Source: Pseudomonas putida (lineage in GTDB: Bacteria > Pseudomonadota > Gammaproteobacteria > Pseudomonadales > Pseudomonadaceae). Taken from it: a stretch of 64,000 nucleotides of DNA. Below are positions 43,527 through 50,127 of this stretch, in pieces. Positions within the stretch are counted from its first letter, which is position 1; every line of letters begins with the position of its first letter. Where the stretch lies: the NCBI RefSeq assembly GCF_003228315.1, contig NZ_CP029693.1:3046001-3110000 (forward strand), written 5' to 3'. Under the pieces are notes generated by a model. The model ran no database searches and was not told where the DNA came from. It saw only the letters and a list, made by a program, of their open reading frames with translations. The translations under genes were made by a program, and so were the position numbers.

Positions 43527-45578
43527 ATGTCCGAGCCACGCAAGATTCTCGTCACCAGCGCCCTGCCCTATGCCAATGGTTCGATTCACCTTGGCCATAT
43601 GCTGGAATACATCCAGACCGATATGTGGGTGCGCTTCCAGAAGCACCGCGGCAATCAATGCATTTATGTCTGCGCCGACGACGCCCACGGTTCGGCGATC
43701 ATGCTGCGCGCGGAAAAGGAAGGCATCACCCCGGAACAACTGATCGCCAACGTCCAGGCTGAACACAGCAGCGACTTTGCCGACTTCCTGGTGGACTTCG
43801 ACAATTTCCACTCCACTCACGCCGAAGAAAACCGTGAGCTGTCGAGCCATATCTACCTGAAACTGCGCGACGCCGGGCACATCGCCACGCGTTCGATCAC
43901 CCAGTATTTCGACCCGGAAAAGAAAATGTTCCTGGCCGACCGCTTCATCAAGGGCACCTGCCCGAAATGCGGCACGGAAGACCAGTACGGCGACAACTGC
44001 GAAAAATGCGGCGCCACCTACGCTCCGACCGACCTGAAGGATCCGAAGTCTGCGATCTCCGGCGCCACACCGGTGCTCAAGGACTCCCAGCACTTCTTCT
44101 TCAAGCTGCCGGACTTCCAGGAAATGCTGCAAACCTGGACCCGTAGCGGCACCCTGCAAGACGCCGTTGCCAACAAGATCGCCGAATGGCTGGATGCCGG
44201 CCTGCAACAATGGGACATCTCCCGTGATGCGCCGTATTTCGGCTTCGAAATTCCCGACGAGCCGGGCAAATATTTCTACGTGTGGCTGGATGCGCCGATC
44301 GGCTACATGGCGAGCTTCAAGAACCTGTGCAACCGCACGCCGGAGCTGGACTTCGACGCGTTCTGGGGCAAGGACTCCACTGCCGAGCTGTACCACTTCA
44401 TCGGCAAGGACATCGTCAACTTCCACGCCCTGTTCTGGCCAGCCATGCTCGAAGGCGCGGGCTACCGCAAGCCGACCGGGATCAACGTGCACGGCTACCT
44501 GACCGTCAACGGTCAGAAAATGTCCAAGTCCCGCGGCACCTTCATCAAGGCCCGGACCTATCTGGATCACCTGTCGCCGGAGTACCTGCGTTACTACTAC
44601 GCCTCCAAGCTGAGCCGTGGCGTCGACGACCTGGACCTGAACCTCGAAGACTTTGTGCAGAAGGTCAACTCCGACCTGGTGGGCAAAGTCGTCAACATCG
44701 CCAGCCGTTGCGCCGGTTTCATCCACAAAGGCAACGCCGGCGTGATGGTCGACACCAATGCCGCGCCGGAGCTGACCGAAGCGTTCCTGGCCGCCGCGCC
44801 TGGCATCGCCGACGCCTATGAAGCCCGCGATTTCGCCCGCGCCATGCGCGAAATCATGGCCCTGGCCGACCGTGCCAACGCCTGGATCGCCGACAAGGCA
44901 CCCTGGTCGTTGAACAAGCAGGAAGGCAAGCAGGATGAAGTCCAGGCCATCTGCGCCACCGGCGTCAACCTGTTCCGCCAGTTGGTGATTTTCCTCAAGC
45001 CCGTGCTGCCGCTGCTGGCCGCCGATGCCGAGGCATTCCTGAATGTCGCGCCATTGACCTGGAACGACCACGCCATCTGGCTGGCCAACCATCAGCTGAA
45101 CGAATTCAAACCGCTGATGACTCGGATCGACCCGGTCAAGGTACAAGCCATGACCGACGCCTCCAAAGAGGACCTGACTGCCAGCCAGACCGACACCGGC
45201 GCAGCTCAACCTGCCGGTAACGGCGAGCTGGCCAAGGATCCGCTGTCGCCGGAAATCGATTTCGACACCTTTGCCGCCGTCGACCTGCGCGTCGCGCTGA
45301 TCGTCAAGGCTGAGCACGTGGAAGGCGCCGACAAGCTGCTGCGCCTGACCCTGGACATCGGCGACGAGCAACGCAACGTGTTCTCCGGCATCAAGAGCGC
45401 TTACCCGGATCCGTCCAAGCTCGACGGTCGCCTGACCATGATGATCGCCAACCTCAAGCCACGGAAAATGAAGTTCGGGATCTCCGAAGGCATGGTGATG
45501 GCAGCTGGTCCTGGCGGTGAAGAAATCTACCTGCTGAGCCCGGACAGCGGCGCCAAGCCCGGTCAGCGGATCAAGTAA
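43527..45578 (+). CDS. metG: Methionyl-tRNA synthetase
   Basis: A 683-residue class I aminoacyl-tRNA synthetase charging tRNA-Met. HIGH-type motif in [12 protein letters not shown], a zinc-knuckle region ([18 protein letters not shown]) and KMSKS. The C-terminal tRNA-binding OB domain ([20 protein letters not shown]) is present, which dimerises the enzyme. A terminator follows. Confidence 0.98.
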
Positions 45579-45595: not shown

Positions 45596-45632
45596 ATCCC
45601 ACAGTCGTGCCTGGCGCGACTGTGGGATTTTC
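45596..45632 (+). terminator. metG terminator
   Basis: Stem ATCCCACAGTCG / CGACTGTGGGAT with a 9-base loop, followed by TTTT. Confidence 0.88.
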
Positions 45633-45719: not shown

Positions 45720-46289
45720 ATGACCGAAGCATTTCTCACGCTTGTCAGCACTGCCCTGATCAACAACCTCGTGTTGAATTGGCCGCTGGGCGTCGATCCG
45801 CTGCTGGCCAGCCAACGAAAGCAAGTTCACGCCTTGGGCATCGCAACGACATGCCTGATGGTTATCGTCGGTCTGCTCGGCTACGCGCTTTATCATTGGC
45901 TGCTGATCCCGTTGCAGCTCACGTCGCTGAACCTGTTCGTGTTCCTTCCCTTGAGCGTGCTGCTGATCAGCCCCTTGCTCACCGGCTTGTCAAAGATGCT
46001 CCCAACGTTGCCCTTCGACGGTCTCTGGCCACTGCTACTGGGCAACGCTGGCGTGCTGGGCGTAGCGCTTTTCAATGAGCGCAATGATCAGGGATTCCTG
46101 TCTGCCACGGCCCTGAGCCTGGACGCAGGACTCGGTTTCTGGCTGGTGCTGAGCCTGTTCAACGATCTGCGCCAACGCACAATCGACAACGATGTTCCCC
46201 TGCCCTTTCGCGGCCTGCCGATCGACCTGATCGGCGCCGGACTGATCGCAGTGGCTTTTCTCGGATTCAGCGGACTGATCAAAACATGA
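45720..46289 (+). CDS. rnfA: Rnf electron-transport complex subunit A
   Basis: A 189-residue inner-membrane protein with about six hydrophobic helices. The N-terminal [21 protein letters not shown] motif follows the RnfA/NqrE pattern (NN-x-V/I-L), although several residues usually conserved there are changed. It is the first gene of a tightly packed unit with rnfB, D, G, E and nth. Its stop overlaps the rnfB start (ATGA). The complex couples electron transfer to ion movement or to SoxR reduction. Confidence 0.85.
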
Positions 46290-47302
46290 GTCTGATTCAA
46301 AGCATCGACGCGCTCCTGCCGCAGACCCAGTGCGGCAAATGCGGCCATCCCGGATGCAAGCCCTACGCTGAAGGCATCGCCAACGGCGAGCCGATCAACA
46401 AATGCCCACCGGGTGGCAACGAAACCATCAATGCCCTGGCCGAATTGCTGAATGTGCCGGTACTGGAGCTTGATGTAAGCCGCGGGCCGGCTCCCGCGCA
46501 GATCGCCTATATCCGCGAAGCCGAATGCATCGGCTGCACCAAATGCATCCAGGCCTGCCCGGTAGATGCCATCGTCGGCGCCGCCAAGCTGATGCACACG
46601 GTCATCATCGATGAATGCACCGGTTGCGATTTGTGTGTGGCACCTTGCCCCGTGGACTGCATCGAAATGCGGCCATTGCCGATAGCCACGGTTCTGCCGA
46701 TTGTCGGCGGCCTGGCCTTCAGCCTCGAAGAACAACAGGCCCGCGCGGCCAAACGCAATCACGCACGGCGCCGCTTTGAACAACGCAATGCCCGATTGCA
46801 ACGTGAAGAACAGCAGAAAGCCGCCGAGCGCCAGGCTCGGGCGCAACGGTCCGCCCAACCGGCTGAAGTGACTCTCGACCCGGTGCAGGCTGCGCTTGAG
46901 CGTGTACGCGCACAGAAAGCCGCCAATGCCGATGCGGCACTGAAAAAAGCCAAAATTGATGTTGCGATGAGCCGGGCGCAACTGACCAAATCCCTCAAGG
47001 CATTCGGCCATCCGCCGACCTTCGAACAGCAGTCGCAGTTGATTGTCCTGCAACAACAATTCGAGGCTGCCGAACAGGCACTCAAACAACTGGAAAACGC
47101 CGCGCCGCCTATGTCGACTCCGGCACCCTCGCCCGCTCCGGAGAAGAATGCCGAATTGAATCGGGCGAAGATCCAGTTGGCCATGCGCCGCGCGGAGCTG
47201 AAAAAGGCCCAGGCCGCCCAGGCATCCGCCGAGCAGATCGAAGCCCTGGAGCGTGCACTCGGCGAAGCCGAGCGTCTGGTGGATGCCCATGCCACTTCTT
47301 GA
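46286..47302 (+). CDS. rnfB: RnfB-like Fe-S protein with RnfC-like C-terminal tail
   Basis: A 338-residue protein. It has the RnfB four-Cys cluster motif (C16, C19, C24, C40 in [10 protein letters not shown]...CPPGG) and two ferredoxin-type 4Fe-4S motifs (C81-C91 [11 protein letters not shown] and C111-C121 [11 protein letters not shown]). Two things are odd. The N-terminal membrane segment of normal RnfB is missing: the protein starts directly at [10 protein letters not shown], and rnfA overlaps the start so no extension is possible. A charged Ala/Arg/Gln/Lys-rich tail (residues 140-338) resembles the C-terminal repeat region of RnfC, for example [19 protein letters not shown] and [12 protein letters not shown]. 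No rnfC follows. The gene is either a natural RnfB/RnfC-tail chimera or a divergent RnfB. Confidence 0.85.
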
Positions 47303-48275
47303 GTCGGTCGACACCCGCCTGCAACAAGCCATGAAACTGGTGCTCCTGGCGACGCTGCCAGGGATGCTGGCGATGTTCTGGTTTTATGGCTGGGGTGTGC
47401 TGATCAATTTGCTGCTGGCCGGCATCGGGGCATTGGCCTCTGAAGCGGTAGCGCTGCACTTGCGCAAGCGTGCACTCCTGCCGACCTTGAGCGACGGCAG
47501 TGCCCTCGTCAGCGCCACGCTACTGGCTCTCGCCCTGCCGCCCTATTGTCCGTGGTGGCTCACCCTCAGCGCCGCCATGTTTGCGATGCTGTTCGGCAAG
47601 CATTTGTACGGCGGTGTCGGCAGTAATCCGTTCAACCCGGCCATGCTCGGTTTCGCTCTGGTAATGGTGACCTTTCCACAAGCAATGACCCAATGGCCCG
47701 CGGCCCATGGCATGGACTTGTGGGGCGGCTTGCAACAGGTCTTCGGCTTCGGTCAACAGCCGGACGCGTGGGTTGGGGCCACCGCACTGGACAGCCTGCG
47801 TATCAACAAAAGCCTGACTATGGACGAACTGTTCTCGACGAATCCTGCGTTCGGTCACTTCGGCGGTCGCGGCGTGGAATGGATCAACCTGGCCTTTCTC
47901 GCAGGCGGCGCATTCCTTCTGCAGCGGCGGCTGTACAGCTGGCATGCGCCGGTCGGCATGCTCGCCAGCCTGTTCATCATCAGCCTTTTGTGCTGGAACG
48001 GCTCCGGTTCGGATTCCCATGGCTCGCCGTTATTTCATCTGCTGACCGGCGCCAGCATGCTGGGTGCGTTTTTCATCGTCACGGAACCGGTGTCCGGCCC
48101 CAAAAGCGCCGGAGCGCGATTGATGTTCGGAATCGGTGTCGGGCTGCTGACGTACCTGATTCGAACCTGGGGCGGCTATCCGGACGGCGTGGCCTTCGCC
48201 GTGCTGTTGATGAACCTTTGTGTGCCGACGCTTGAGCGGCTTGTCGTCGCCAGACAGGAGCGAACCAGGCCATGA
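47289..48275 (+). CDS. rnfD: Rnf complex subunit D
   Basis: A 328-residue inner-membrane subunit with about nine hydrophobic helices. [16 protein letters not shown] and the flavin-attachment region GAT at 163-165 ([13 protein letters not shown]) are seen; RnfD carries a covalent FMN. It begins inside the end of rnfB (14-base overlap), directly where rnfC would normally lie. ATG 47283 is an alternative start two codons upstream. Confidence 0.92.
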
Positions 48276-48883
48276 GCCGCCTATCGAGTGCAGTCATACT
48301 TGGATTGCTCGCCGTCCTGGGGATCGGCCTGACCTGGGTTGTACAGCACAGCAGCGCGCCGCACATTGCAACACAGCAGCGCTTGATCGACAGTCGCAAT
48401 CTGCTGGACCTGCTGCCACCCGACAGCTACGACAATCAGCCGCTGGAGCAATCGCTCACACTGGAAAAGCCAGAACTGGGCAACAGCACACTGCTGGCGG
48501 GTTTCCGCGCAACCAGAGCCGGTCAACCCTCTGCCGTCCTGTTGCGTAGCCAGACCCTTGGATATGAAGGCAGCATCGAGTTGCTGATCGCCATCGATCC
48601 CAACGGCAGGTTGATTGGTGTGAAAACCCTCAAACAAACGGAGACGCCAGGACTCGGTGCGCGGATCGGAGAATGGCCCAACGCGTGGCTCGAGCTGTTT
48701 GCCGGCAAATCTCTCACCGATCCGGGTGACAACGGCTGGGCATTGAAAAAAGATCAGGGACAATTCGACCAGATTGCCGGTGCGACCATCACATCGAGAG
48801 CCGTGATCAACGCTACCCACGATGCTCTGCGCTACTTTGATGAACACCGGCAACAACTGCTCTGGAGCCCCTCCCATGAGTAA
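48272..48883 (+). CDS. rnfG: Rnf complex subunit G
   Basis: A 203-residue protein with one N-terminal membrane helix (residues 5-24) and a periplasmic FMN-binding domain. The FMN-attachment motif is AGATITS near residue 172, and KQTETPGLGARI is a family signature. Its start overlaps the rnfD stop (ATGA). It transfers electrons within the Rnf complex on the periplasmic face. Confidence 0.92.
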   Translation: MSRLSSAVILGLLAVLGIGLTWVVQHSSAPHIATQQRLIDSRNLLDLLPPDSYDNQPLEQSLTLEKPELGNSTLLAGFRATRAGQPSAVLLRSQTLGYEGSIELLIAIDPNGRLIGVKTLKQTETPGLGARIGEWPNAWLELFAGKSLTDPGDNGWALKKDQGQFDQIAGATITSRAVINATHDALRYFDEHRQQLLWSPSHE

Positions 48884-49463
48884 ATCACCGCTATTACAGA
48901 ACTCTTTGATGCTCGCGCCACTGATCGGCGCCACCGGCTCAGTCATGAGCGCGCTGGGTCTGTGGCTGATGTTCATGGTGGTAATCGGGGTTTTCAACGG
49001 AGTGATGAGTGCATTGAGGTCACGACTGCACGCGGCAATGCATTTGCTGGCAAGTGTGGTTCTTGCCGCAACACTGACCAGTAGTGTTCAGCTCTGTGCG
49101 CAAGTCTGGTCGCTGCAGTGGTATCAACAGGTGGGAATTTATTCAGCGTTGATCGCTTTGCAATGTGTCGTGCTGGAGTGTTCGGGATTCTTCCAGACCC
49201 CTTGGCGAAATCGCGTGCATCTGTGTGTCCTGTTCGGCACCTTGCTGGTGGGCCTGGGTCTGCTGCGCGAACTGCTTGGCAACGGCACACTCGGCTCTCA
49301 CCTGTCGTGGCTCGCGGGAGGGATACAAACGGATTGGCAAGGCTGGAAGTTGACCGCCGACGGTGGCTTGCGTGTACTTTCCCTGGCCCCCGGTGGCTTC
49401 ATCCTGCTGGGATTGCTGGTCGCCGCATGGCAGACCTGGCACCGTCAGAGATCCGAACAATGA
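48876..49463 (+). CDS. rnfE: Rnf complex subunit E
   Basis: A 195-residue inner-membrane protein with about six helices, homologous to RnfE/NqrD. It starts within the end of rnfG (8-base overlap). The NNLV-like motif expected near the N-terminus of RnfE (NN-x-V-Q-x-LG-LCP) is replaced by MSKSPLLQNSLMLAPLIGAT, so this member is divergent. Nth follows 25 bases later. Confidence 0.82.
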   Translation: MSKSPLLQNSLMLAPLIGATGSVMSALGLWLMFMVVIGVFNGVMSALRSRLHAAMHLLASVVLAATLTSSVQLCAQVWSLQWYQQVGIYSALIALQCVVLECSGFFQTPWRNRVHLCVLFGTLLVGLGLLRELLGNGTLGSHLSWLAGGIQTDWQGWKLTADGGLRVLSLAPGGFILLGLLVAAWQTWHRQRSEQ

Positions 49464-49488: not shown

Positions 49489-50127
49489 ATGAATGCCGCT
49501 AAACGCCTGGAAATATTCCGCAGGCTGCATGAAGACAACCCGGAACCGAAGACCGAACTGGCCTACTCGTCGCCCTTCGAGTTGCTGATTGCGGTGATCC
49601 TGTCGGCACAATCCACCGACGTTGGCGTCAATAAAGCCACGGCAAAACTGTTCCCGGTCGCCAATACGCCGGCCGCGATTCATGCACTGGGGGTCGAGGG
49701 GTTATCGGAATACATCAAGACCATCGGCTTGTTCAACAGCAAGGCGAAAAACGTGATCGAAACCTGTCGGTTACTGGTCGAGCGCCATGCCGGTGAAGTA
49801 CCGCAGACTCGCGAAGAACTGGAAGCGCTGCCCGGCGTAGGCCGCAAGACCGCCAACGTGGTGCTCAATACCGCATTCCGTCAGCTGACGATGGCTGTCG
49901 ACACCCATATCTTCCGGGTCAGCAACCGCACTGGCATTGCACCAGGCAAGAATGTGGTCGAGGTCGAGCATAAACTGATGAAGTTCGTGCCCAAGCAGTA
50001 CCTGCTCGACTCCCATCACTGGCTGATCCTTCACGGACGCTATGTTTGCCTGGCCCGCAAGCCTCGCTGCGGCAGTTGTCGCATAGAAGACTTGTGCGAA
50101 TACAAGCACAAGACCTCGGACGATTGA
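49489..50127 (+). CDS. nth: Endonuclease III
   Basis: A 212-residue DNA glycosylase/AP lyase that removes oxidised pyrimidines. It has the helix-hairpin-helix LPGVGRKTANVV with the catalytic Lys, the catalytic Asp in AVDTHIFRV, and the 4Fe-4S Cys set CLARKPRCGSCRIEDLC. It is the last gene of the rnf operon, an association common in gammaproteobacteria. Confidence 0.97.
   Translation: MNAAKRLEIFRRLHEDNPEPKTELAYSSPFELLIAVILSAQSTDVGVNKATAKLFPVANTPAAIHALGVEGLSEYIKTIGLFNSKAKNVIETCRLLVERHAGEVPQTREELEALPGVGRKTANVVLNTAFRQLTMAVDTHIFRVSNRTGIAPGKNVVEVEHKLMKFVPKQYLLDSHHWLILHGRYVCLARKPRCGSCRIEDLCEYKHKTSDD

Follow-up and report, generated by a model that had tools for sequence, protein, structure and literature searches.

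Rnf-type genes without rnfC between metG and nth in Pseudomonas

In the Rnf complex of Acetobacterium woodii, electrons are described as passing from RnfB through an intramembrane [2Fe-2S] cluster to RnfG, RnfD and RnfC (PMC11889175, PMC12174285). The ligands of this cluster are Cys25 and Cys113 of RnfA and Cys25 and Cys108 of RnfE, and the cluster itself is presented as central to the pump proposed for Rnf/NQR (PMC11889175), NQR being the Na+-translocating quinone oxidoreductase that uses reduced nicotinamide adenine dinucleotide (NADH). The complete genes are found in the order rsxABCDGE-nth in Escherichia coli and metG-rnfABCDGE-nth in four full Pseudomonas loci. Here we consider a stretch of 64,000 nucleotides from Pseudomonas putida (contig NZ_CP029693.1, positions 3,046,001 to 3,110,000; hereafter the window), in which the genes between metG and nth form an rnfABDGE operon that has no rnfC.

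NQR, whose subunits NqrB, NqrC, NqrD and NqrE are homologous to RnfD, RnfG, RnfE and RnfA, is reported to pass electrons directly to membrane quinone (PMC12174285), and a published hypothesis has it descend from Rnf, with rnfB being lost and RnfC decaying into NqrA (PMC4014512). No match to nqrA was obtained in the window genome (NqrF was not searched for). Partial NQR/RNF systems are already known, but they are different (PMC8238504, PMC11334425): these two-subunit systems are likewise partial Rnf-type flavoproteins, thought to be one-way electron carriers, but their RnfD carries a fused NAD-binding domain (PF00175), whereas the RnfD of the window matches PF03116 only and RnfA and RnfE remain beside it. 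Lone RsxB/RnfB proteins (NF005415, NF006446) resemble the RnfB of the window in being anchor-less, encoded near nth and/or metG and equipped with an RnfC-like tail; unlike it, they stand alone at their locus, whereas the window gene is in an operon with rnfADGE and its product scored 249.7 bits against NF005415 over residues 2-271, under the cut-off of 281. In the literature consulted, from which subscription journals and bioRxiv were mostly outside the scope, we recognised no description of an RnfC-less Rnf, of an RnfB-RnfC fusion or of cluster-free RnfA and RnfE.

With RnfABCDGE/RsxABCDGE the locus shares the order of its five homologous subunits, the nth neighbour of E. coli, the flavin sites and the Fe-S motifs of RnfB; it differs from them in having no RnfC and no anchor on RnfB, in the loss of the [2Fe-2S] ligands and in the presence of an RnfC tail on RnfB. 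From these sequence features we consider it probable, if by no means certain, that Rnf was divided, in one ancient remodelling, into a soluble RnfC-tailed ferredoxin and a cluster-free, flavinylated membrane module.

Absence of rnfC and the tail of RnfB

The genes rnfA (45720..46289), rnfB (46286-47302), rnfD (47289..48275), rnfG (48272..48883) and rnfE (48876..49463) all lie on the forward strand and overlap by 4 to 14 bases, and nth starts at 49489, which leaves no space for rnfC; these coordinates confirm the order A-B-D-G-E given in the original prediction, made from the sequence of the window before this analysis. RnfB, RnfD (328 residues, 355 bits) and RnfG (203 residues, 164 bits) passed the cut-offs of TIGR01944, TIGR01946 and TIGR01947, respectively, the rnfD searches having been made with the frame from 47295 although its ATG is at 47289.

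The same prediction took rnfC, which encodes the subunit carrying NADH, flavin mononucleotide (FMN) and Fe-S sites, to be lost and not moved, and a search of the whole genome, 6.85 Mb in one contig and reported as 100% complete, agreed with this: TIGR01945 has a cut-off of 246 bits, and its only three matches reached 55, 27 and 26. One match to PF13375 (RnfC_N) was barely above its cut-off (26.2 versus 25.6 bits) and falls in a frame that we take, from the way it reads, to be a pyruvate-carboxylase/biotin-carrier protein and not RnfC. An intact rnfC elsewhere was rejected on these scores and on this reading of the frame.

RnfC exceeded the cut-off in only 30 of 199 Pseudomonas genomes. Sorted by search thresholds for RnfC, RnfB and RnfD, the 199 genomes comprised 24 full sets, 96 of type ABDGE, 53 with RnfB but without RnfD, 16 of type ADGE and 10 with neither. 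The two RnfC-less classes, ABDGE and ADGE, thus account for 112 genomes, and the survey of related genomes that had been proposed showed that the arrangement is not peculiar to a single strain. The remaining six genomes above the rnfC cut-off owe this to another set (G022, L068) or to a second, distant Rnf-like set (G021, G057, G072, G093 and G103). Such a second set, with an RnfC of 373-404 bits, was seen in G093 (C31:167611), G021 (C152:1238) and G057 (C1:2459475), as well as in G072, G103, G082, G060, G180 and G185; in G093 and G021 an apbE match lies within 1 kb of it. We read the loci themselves in 4 of the 24 full genomes, 64 of the 96 ABDGE, 36 of the 53 with rnfB and without rnfD, and all 16 ADGE. 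Thirty-five of the 36 proved to be lone rnfB, and one (G034, locus L136) is a broken ABDGE locus with shortened RnfB, RnfD and RnfE frames, by decay or sequencing error. In a class-wide sample of 185 genomes, 112 had RnfD, and among these a match to RnfC (1e-50) was missing only in the window genome, G291, G333 and G351, the last of which ends at a contig edge and is uninformative on rnfC.

RnfB had been described as starting directly at its first Cys cluster, without a membrane anchor, and the comparison with full operons bears this out. Fifteen residues precede the first Cys, and the front of the protein (residues 1-128, 46286..46669; 215.6 bits with TIGR01944) carries one 4Fe-4S motif at C16-C40 and two at C81-C125, the ligands being intact (13 Cys columns conserved in 42 of 42 aligned RnfB rows). 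RnfB of full Pseudomonas operons is about 191 residues long with an N-terminal membrane helix, and the maximum 19-residue hydropathy before the QTQC motif was 2.44-3.14 in full-operon RnfB (5/5), versus no more than 1.01 in fused RnfB, as judged from the 33 of 99 frames that are long enough, the other 66 having fewer than 19 residues before QTQC.

The remainder of RnfB is a helical tail (residues 147-338, 46724..47299) which, as originally proposed, resembles the end of RnfC. Beyond its Fe-S domain, Pseudomonas RnfC extends for another 322 to 513 residues (15 tails), and the best blastp matches of 99 RnfB tails to these 15 had a median of 76.3 bits, versus a median of 18.3 and a maximum of 28.5 bits for shuffled RnfB tails (20 rounds). 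G034 (L136) was omitted from these comparisons, as were 13 of the 28 RnfC frames because the frame taken lacked the CP[ST].IPL mark. The tail of the window scored 72 bits with the RnfC tail of L005 (E 4e-18, 49% over 116 amino acids), its 500 shuffles reaching at most 28.1 bits, and 67 bits over 156 amino acids in a second comparison with an RnfC tail. In L065, RnfB residues 215-401 matched residues 631-812 of the RnfC of G078 (140 bits, 51% identity), including a non-repetitive SGKPAP...LKTE segment that is missing from the shorter window tail, and a second segment pairs with RFEQRQERLRRAEEQK directly after the ferredoxin domain of RnfC. Composition bias as the cause of the similarity was ruled out by the shuffles and by this 140-bit match. 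Judged by these alignments, the RnfB tail is homologous to the tail of RnfC. The original prediction had a deletion join the two; one that stays in frame, beginning in the 3' portion of rnfB and ending within rnfC, would be the simplest origin, and is consistent with the tail homology and with the position of rnfB directly before rnfC in full operons.

A structural model of RnfB has helices at residues 147-189, 199-239, 246-272, 286-310 and 315-336, mostly with a predicted local distance difference test score (pLDDT) over 80, and the tail is predicted to form one long helix and two helical hairpins; the model was used for the tail only, its pLDDT being under 50 at residues 64-131 in the Fe-S part. 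In 2005, E. coli RnfC was divided into two modules, 1-448 and 450-740, the second without assigned function (PMC555942). In A. woodii the C-terminal helix of RnfC is described as binding RnfB (PMC11889175), so that a fusion of RnfB with the RnfC tail would keep a natural contact.

Two other kinds of RnfB with parts of RnfC were encountered. Fifteen further genomes of the class encode a lone RnfB (L185-L190 and L192-L200), close to nth and/or metG in every case but L185, and one of them, G280, carries a separate Rnf set at another place. A model built on 14 of these lone RnfB tails scored 87 bits against the E. coli RsxC tail (best shuffle shown, -0.6), and the idea that long RsxB proteins ordinarily have such a tail without any relation to RnfC was rejected on this ground. 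It gave the window tail 21 bits and just one of the 15 Pseudomonas RnfC tails a score above zero; the window-type and lone-RnfB fusions may be separate events. In G291 (L181, 5747-6718) and G333 (L184, 4656-5588), RnfB is fused to the 4Fe-4S domain and tail of RnfC, without the NADH/FMN domain, in a second type of RnfB-RnfC fusion. These are like the window in the loss of RnfC with its tail joined to RnfB, and unlike it in retaining two RnfC 4Fe-4S motifs and the cluster Cys of RnfA (L181, L184) and RnfE (L181, L183); in G333 a non-rnf frame lies 3' of rnfB and D-G-E are on another contig.

Ligands of the intramembrane cluster

RnfA (189 residues) and RnfE (195 residues) matched PF02508, with 65 and 58 bits, yet both scored under every NCBIfam cut-off listed (RnfA 123 bits with NF003481 against 240; RnfE 87.5 bits with NF009070 against 184), and on these scores they are divergent, as had been suspected. 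The cluster Cys positions of RnfA are taken by Asp (GVDPLLA) and Ala (GNAGVLG), and in RnfE the first Cys is gone and the second (LQC) is present, so the window keeps one ligand of four. Aligned to E. coli, Cys26 and Cys114 of RnfA and Cys26 of RnfE are gone in 81/81 RnfC-less loci (65 ABDGE, with the window and the broken G034 included, and 16 ADGE), and Cys109 of RnfE is retained in 77 of them though its three partners are gone. All four Cys are present in the six full sets aligned (E. coli, four at metG-nth and one other set of G022). Among the best 80 of 506 relatives, the named Pseudomonas-titled loci near the window were 70 ABDGE and 10 lone rnfB, and the RnfA cysteine motifs occurred in none of the 70. 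Asp replaces Cys26 of RnfA in 57 of the 81 loci.

RnfA is still recognisable as such: a profile built from 34 sequences recovers A. woodii RnfA with 136 bits. The predicted RnfA model (mean pLDDT 79) matched, in Foldseek, the RnfA/NqrE chains of solved Rnf and NQR structures, with E values from 2.9e-7 to 3.5e-4 and template modelling (TM) scores of 0.63-0.70, the best PDB matches being RnfA of A. woodii (TM 0.63) and of Azotobacter vinelandii (TM 0.70).

Flavin sites, phylogeny and neighbouring genes

The FMN-attachment Thr of RnfD (VGATALD) and the attachment motif of RnfG (DQIAGATITS) are both present in the window. Over 80 RnfC-less loci (L136 left out), RnfG has Thr (78 loci) or Ser (2) at the attachment position, and RnfD likewise has Thr (79) or Ser (1). 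ApbE, the flavin transferase that attaches FMN to such proteins, was found in all 136 RnfD-positive genomes among the 199, including that of the window; in NQR-less genomes it accompanies RnfD in 111/111, versus 11/60 without RnfD (Fisher p 2e-32, ignoring kinship). Of 36 genomes picked by type, the 17 with RnfD all had FMN_bind matches, as did G034, and the remaining 18 had none. RnfG is the sole such match in the window genome, and the same holds for 8 of 11 ABDGE genomes (window included) and for the 6 ADGE genomes checked. The apbE gene of the window genome has no recognisable flavinylation substrate gene beside it; its flanks presumably encode a glyceraldehyde-3-phosphate dehydrogenase and a pyridine nucleotide transhydrogenase.

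In a quick tree of RnfD and RnfG, the 80 RnfC-less sequences form one clade (Shimodaira-Hasegawa-like approximate likelihood ratio test 100, stem 0.41) beside five full Pseudomonadaceae (support 97), the root being less sure because long branches meet at the outgroup. Many independent losses of RnfC find no support in this tree. L068, L070 and L136 are left out of the RnfD and RnfG tree and of the RnfB-front tree, and L043, L068, L070 and L136 of the species tree from MetG and Nth. In the latter, the full operons of L030 and L031-L033 are nested among RnfC-less ones, from which RnfD and RnfG set them apart; this suggests, but does not prove, an exchange of whole operons between metG and nth.

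Near-full-length frames were found in 80 of the 81 RnfC-less loci read. The median ratio of nonsynonymous to synonymous substitution rates (dN/dS) was 0.21 for A, 0.13 for D, 0.17 for G and 0.24 for E (15 pairs, two of them full operons), and 0.22, 0.14, 0.17 and 0.24 in the 13 RnfC-less pairs alone. It was 0.054 for the RnfB front (14 pairs), 0.14 for the RnfB tail (13 pairs) and 0.02-0.03 for nth and metG (18 pairs), and was far under 1 in every computable pair and gene. On these ratios the genes are under purifying selection, which for RnfA and RnfE is weaker than that seen in the two full pairs.

The locus is bordered upstream by metG (43527..45578, forward strand), as elsewhere in Pseudomonas, and downstream by nth, which encodes endonuclease III (49489..50127, forward strand; TIGR01083, 283 bits) and also lies 3' of rsxE in E. 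coli. A 12-base inverted repeat with a 9-base loop, followed by TTTT, was spotted by eye 3' of metG (45596-45628) and may terminate metG transcription ahead of rnfA; a promoter and terminator scan returned nothing useful, and this repeat was not among its output.

Competing explanations and meaning

Under the split that we favour, an ancestral rnfABCDGE between metG and nth would have been remodelled once in Pseudomonas, rnfC being lost with its NADH/FMN and Fe-S domains while a homologue of its C-terminal helical tail came to stand on RnfB. Because RnfC is gone, RnfB is unanchored and the ligands of RnfA and RnfE are lost, the usual circuit (ferredoxin - RnfB - RnfA/E cluster - RnfG - RnfD - RnfC - NAD) is on this evidence cut at both ends of its membrane part, which would leave two devices. 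One would be a soluble RnfB ferredoxin, the RnfC tail acting as a protein-docking arm, that serves cytosolic Fe-S or redox partners. The other, RnfADGE, would be a flavoprotein of the membrane. Electrons in it would be exchanged solely between RnfD, with its riboflavin/FMN, and the FMN of RnfG, and RnfA and RnfE would act as a cluster-free scaffold or ion path. RnfADGE would most likely connect the quinone pool, in the manner of NqrB, with a donor or acceptor in the periplasm; with RnfC absent and NqrB as precedent (PMC12174285), quinone would be the simplest partner at RnfD. RnfB and ADGE most likely function separately, since each occurs without the other and the ligands of the linking cluster are lost. 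In the species of the window one operon still encodes both. We put forward only tentatively the further step that RnfADGE is a new machine of the Rnf/NQR family, flavin-only, cluster-free and NADH-free, for exchange between quinone and periplasm, beside RnfB as an independent cytosolic ferredoxin.

Several observations weigh against this account. The two halves share one operon in 96 of the 199 genomes and could thus continue to cooperate, and the RnfB-front tree unites the fused RnfB with a support of only 63. In the 13 RnfC-less pairs dN/dS is 0.11-0.36 for RnfA and 0.19-0.49 for RnfE, versus 0-0.06 and 0.08-0.14 in the two full pairs, a faster evolution that would also be expected of partial decay. 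The association of ApbE with RnfD is clustered on the tree: among six independent pairs on supported branches, ApbE went with RnfD in 3.2 on average, the opposite never occurred and 2.8 showed no difference, and a sign test over the pairs was not significant. Ten genomes have ApbE without RnfD or any FMN_bind match, so ApbE alone is no proof of a flavinylated RnfG. In one genome without RnfD, G006, apbE lies directly 3' of a PepSY/flavodoxin-reductase-like gene (L289, 2531-5675), which gives this ApbE another likely use.

The alternative that survives best, although we regard it as unlikely, is a slow decay in which a functionless complex goes by way of ABDGE to a lone rnfB, to ADGE or to complete loss. 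It would account for the raised dN/dS of A and E, for the broken copy of G034 and for the scatter of reduced states over the MetG and Nth tree, where 118 loci require 20 changes of type and 14 of RnfD presence; it accords poorly with a single deep clade whose frames are nearly full-length in all but one locus, with dN/dS well under 1 wherever computable, with flavin sites intact in 80/80 loci and with ApbE in every RnfD-positive genome.

Somewhat less probable again is the route of the original prediction, in which electrons from a soluble ferredoxin or flavodoxin would still pass through RnfB and across RnfA and RnfE. The complete conservation of the RnfB Fe-S cysteines, the strong purifying selection on its front and the 96 genomes with B and D but without C speak for it. 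This part of the prediction nevertheless fits badly with what was found, as the cluster that joins RnfB to RnfG has lost three of its four ligands in 81/81 loci, as 16 genomes have RnfD (rnfADGE at the locus) without an RnfB match and 53 have RnfB without an RnfD match, and as RnfB lacks the anchor that contacts RnfG in A. woodii (PMC11889175).

We give slightly less credence still to a retained, Rsx-like role in reducing SoxR. SoxR is encoded in the window genome (227 bits), and RSX and apbE are listed among the genes activated by the SoxR response in E. coli, but E. coli Rsx is described as NAD(P)H-dependent (PMC12174285), and the system here has lost both its NADH subunit and the ligands of its membrane cluster. 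A complete complex with rnfC elsewhere in the genome has almost no probability, for the three TIGR01945 matches of at most 55 bits and the marginal PF13375 match that might favour it face a single-contig genome, reported as complete, without a match above 246 bits, a biotin-carrier-like frame, a genus in which few genomes pass the RnfC cut-off and the accompanying loss of the RnfA and RnfE ligands.

The clade would be a parallel, with other losses, to the proposed origin of NQR from Rnf. For annotation, where Rnf is called from rnfB or rnfD alone, ferredoxin:NAD exchange could be wrongly ascribed to the genome; one survey, for example, took an RnfB in a flavinylation gene cluster as a sign that RNF was present (PMC8238504). 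The RnfC tail, so far unexplained, gains a context by having moved onto RnfB, and the two halves of Rnf are seen to be separable in evolution. A widespread complex that has lost its cluster ligands and apparently kept its flavins offers a test of what the flavin half of Rnf does alone.

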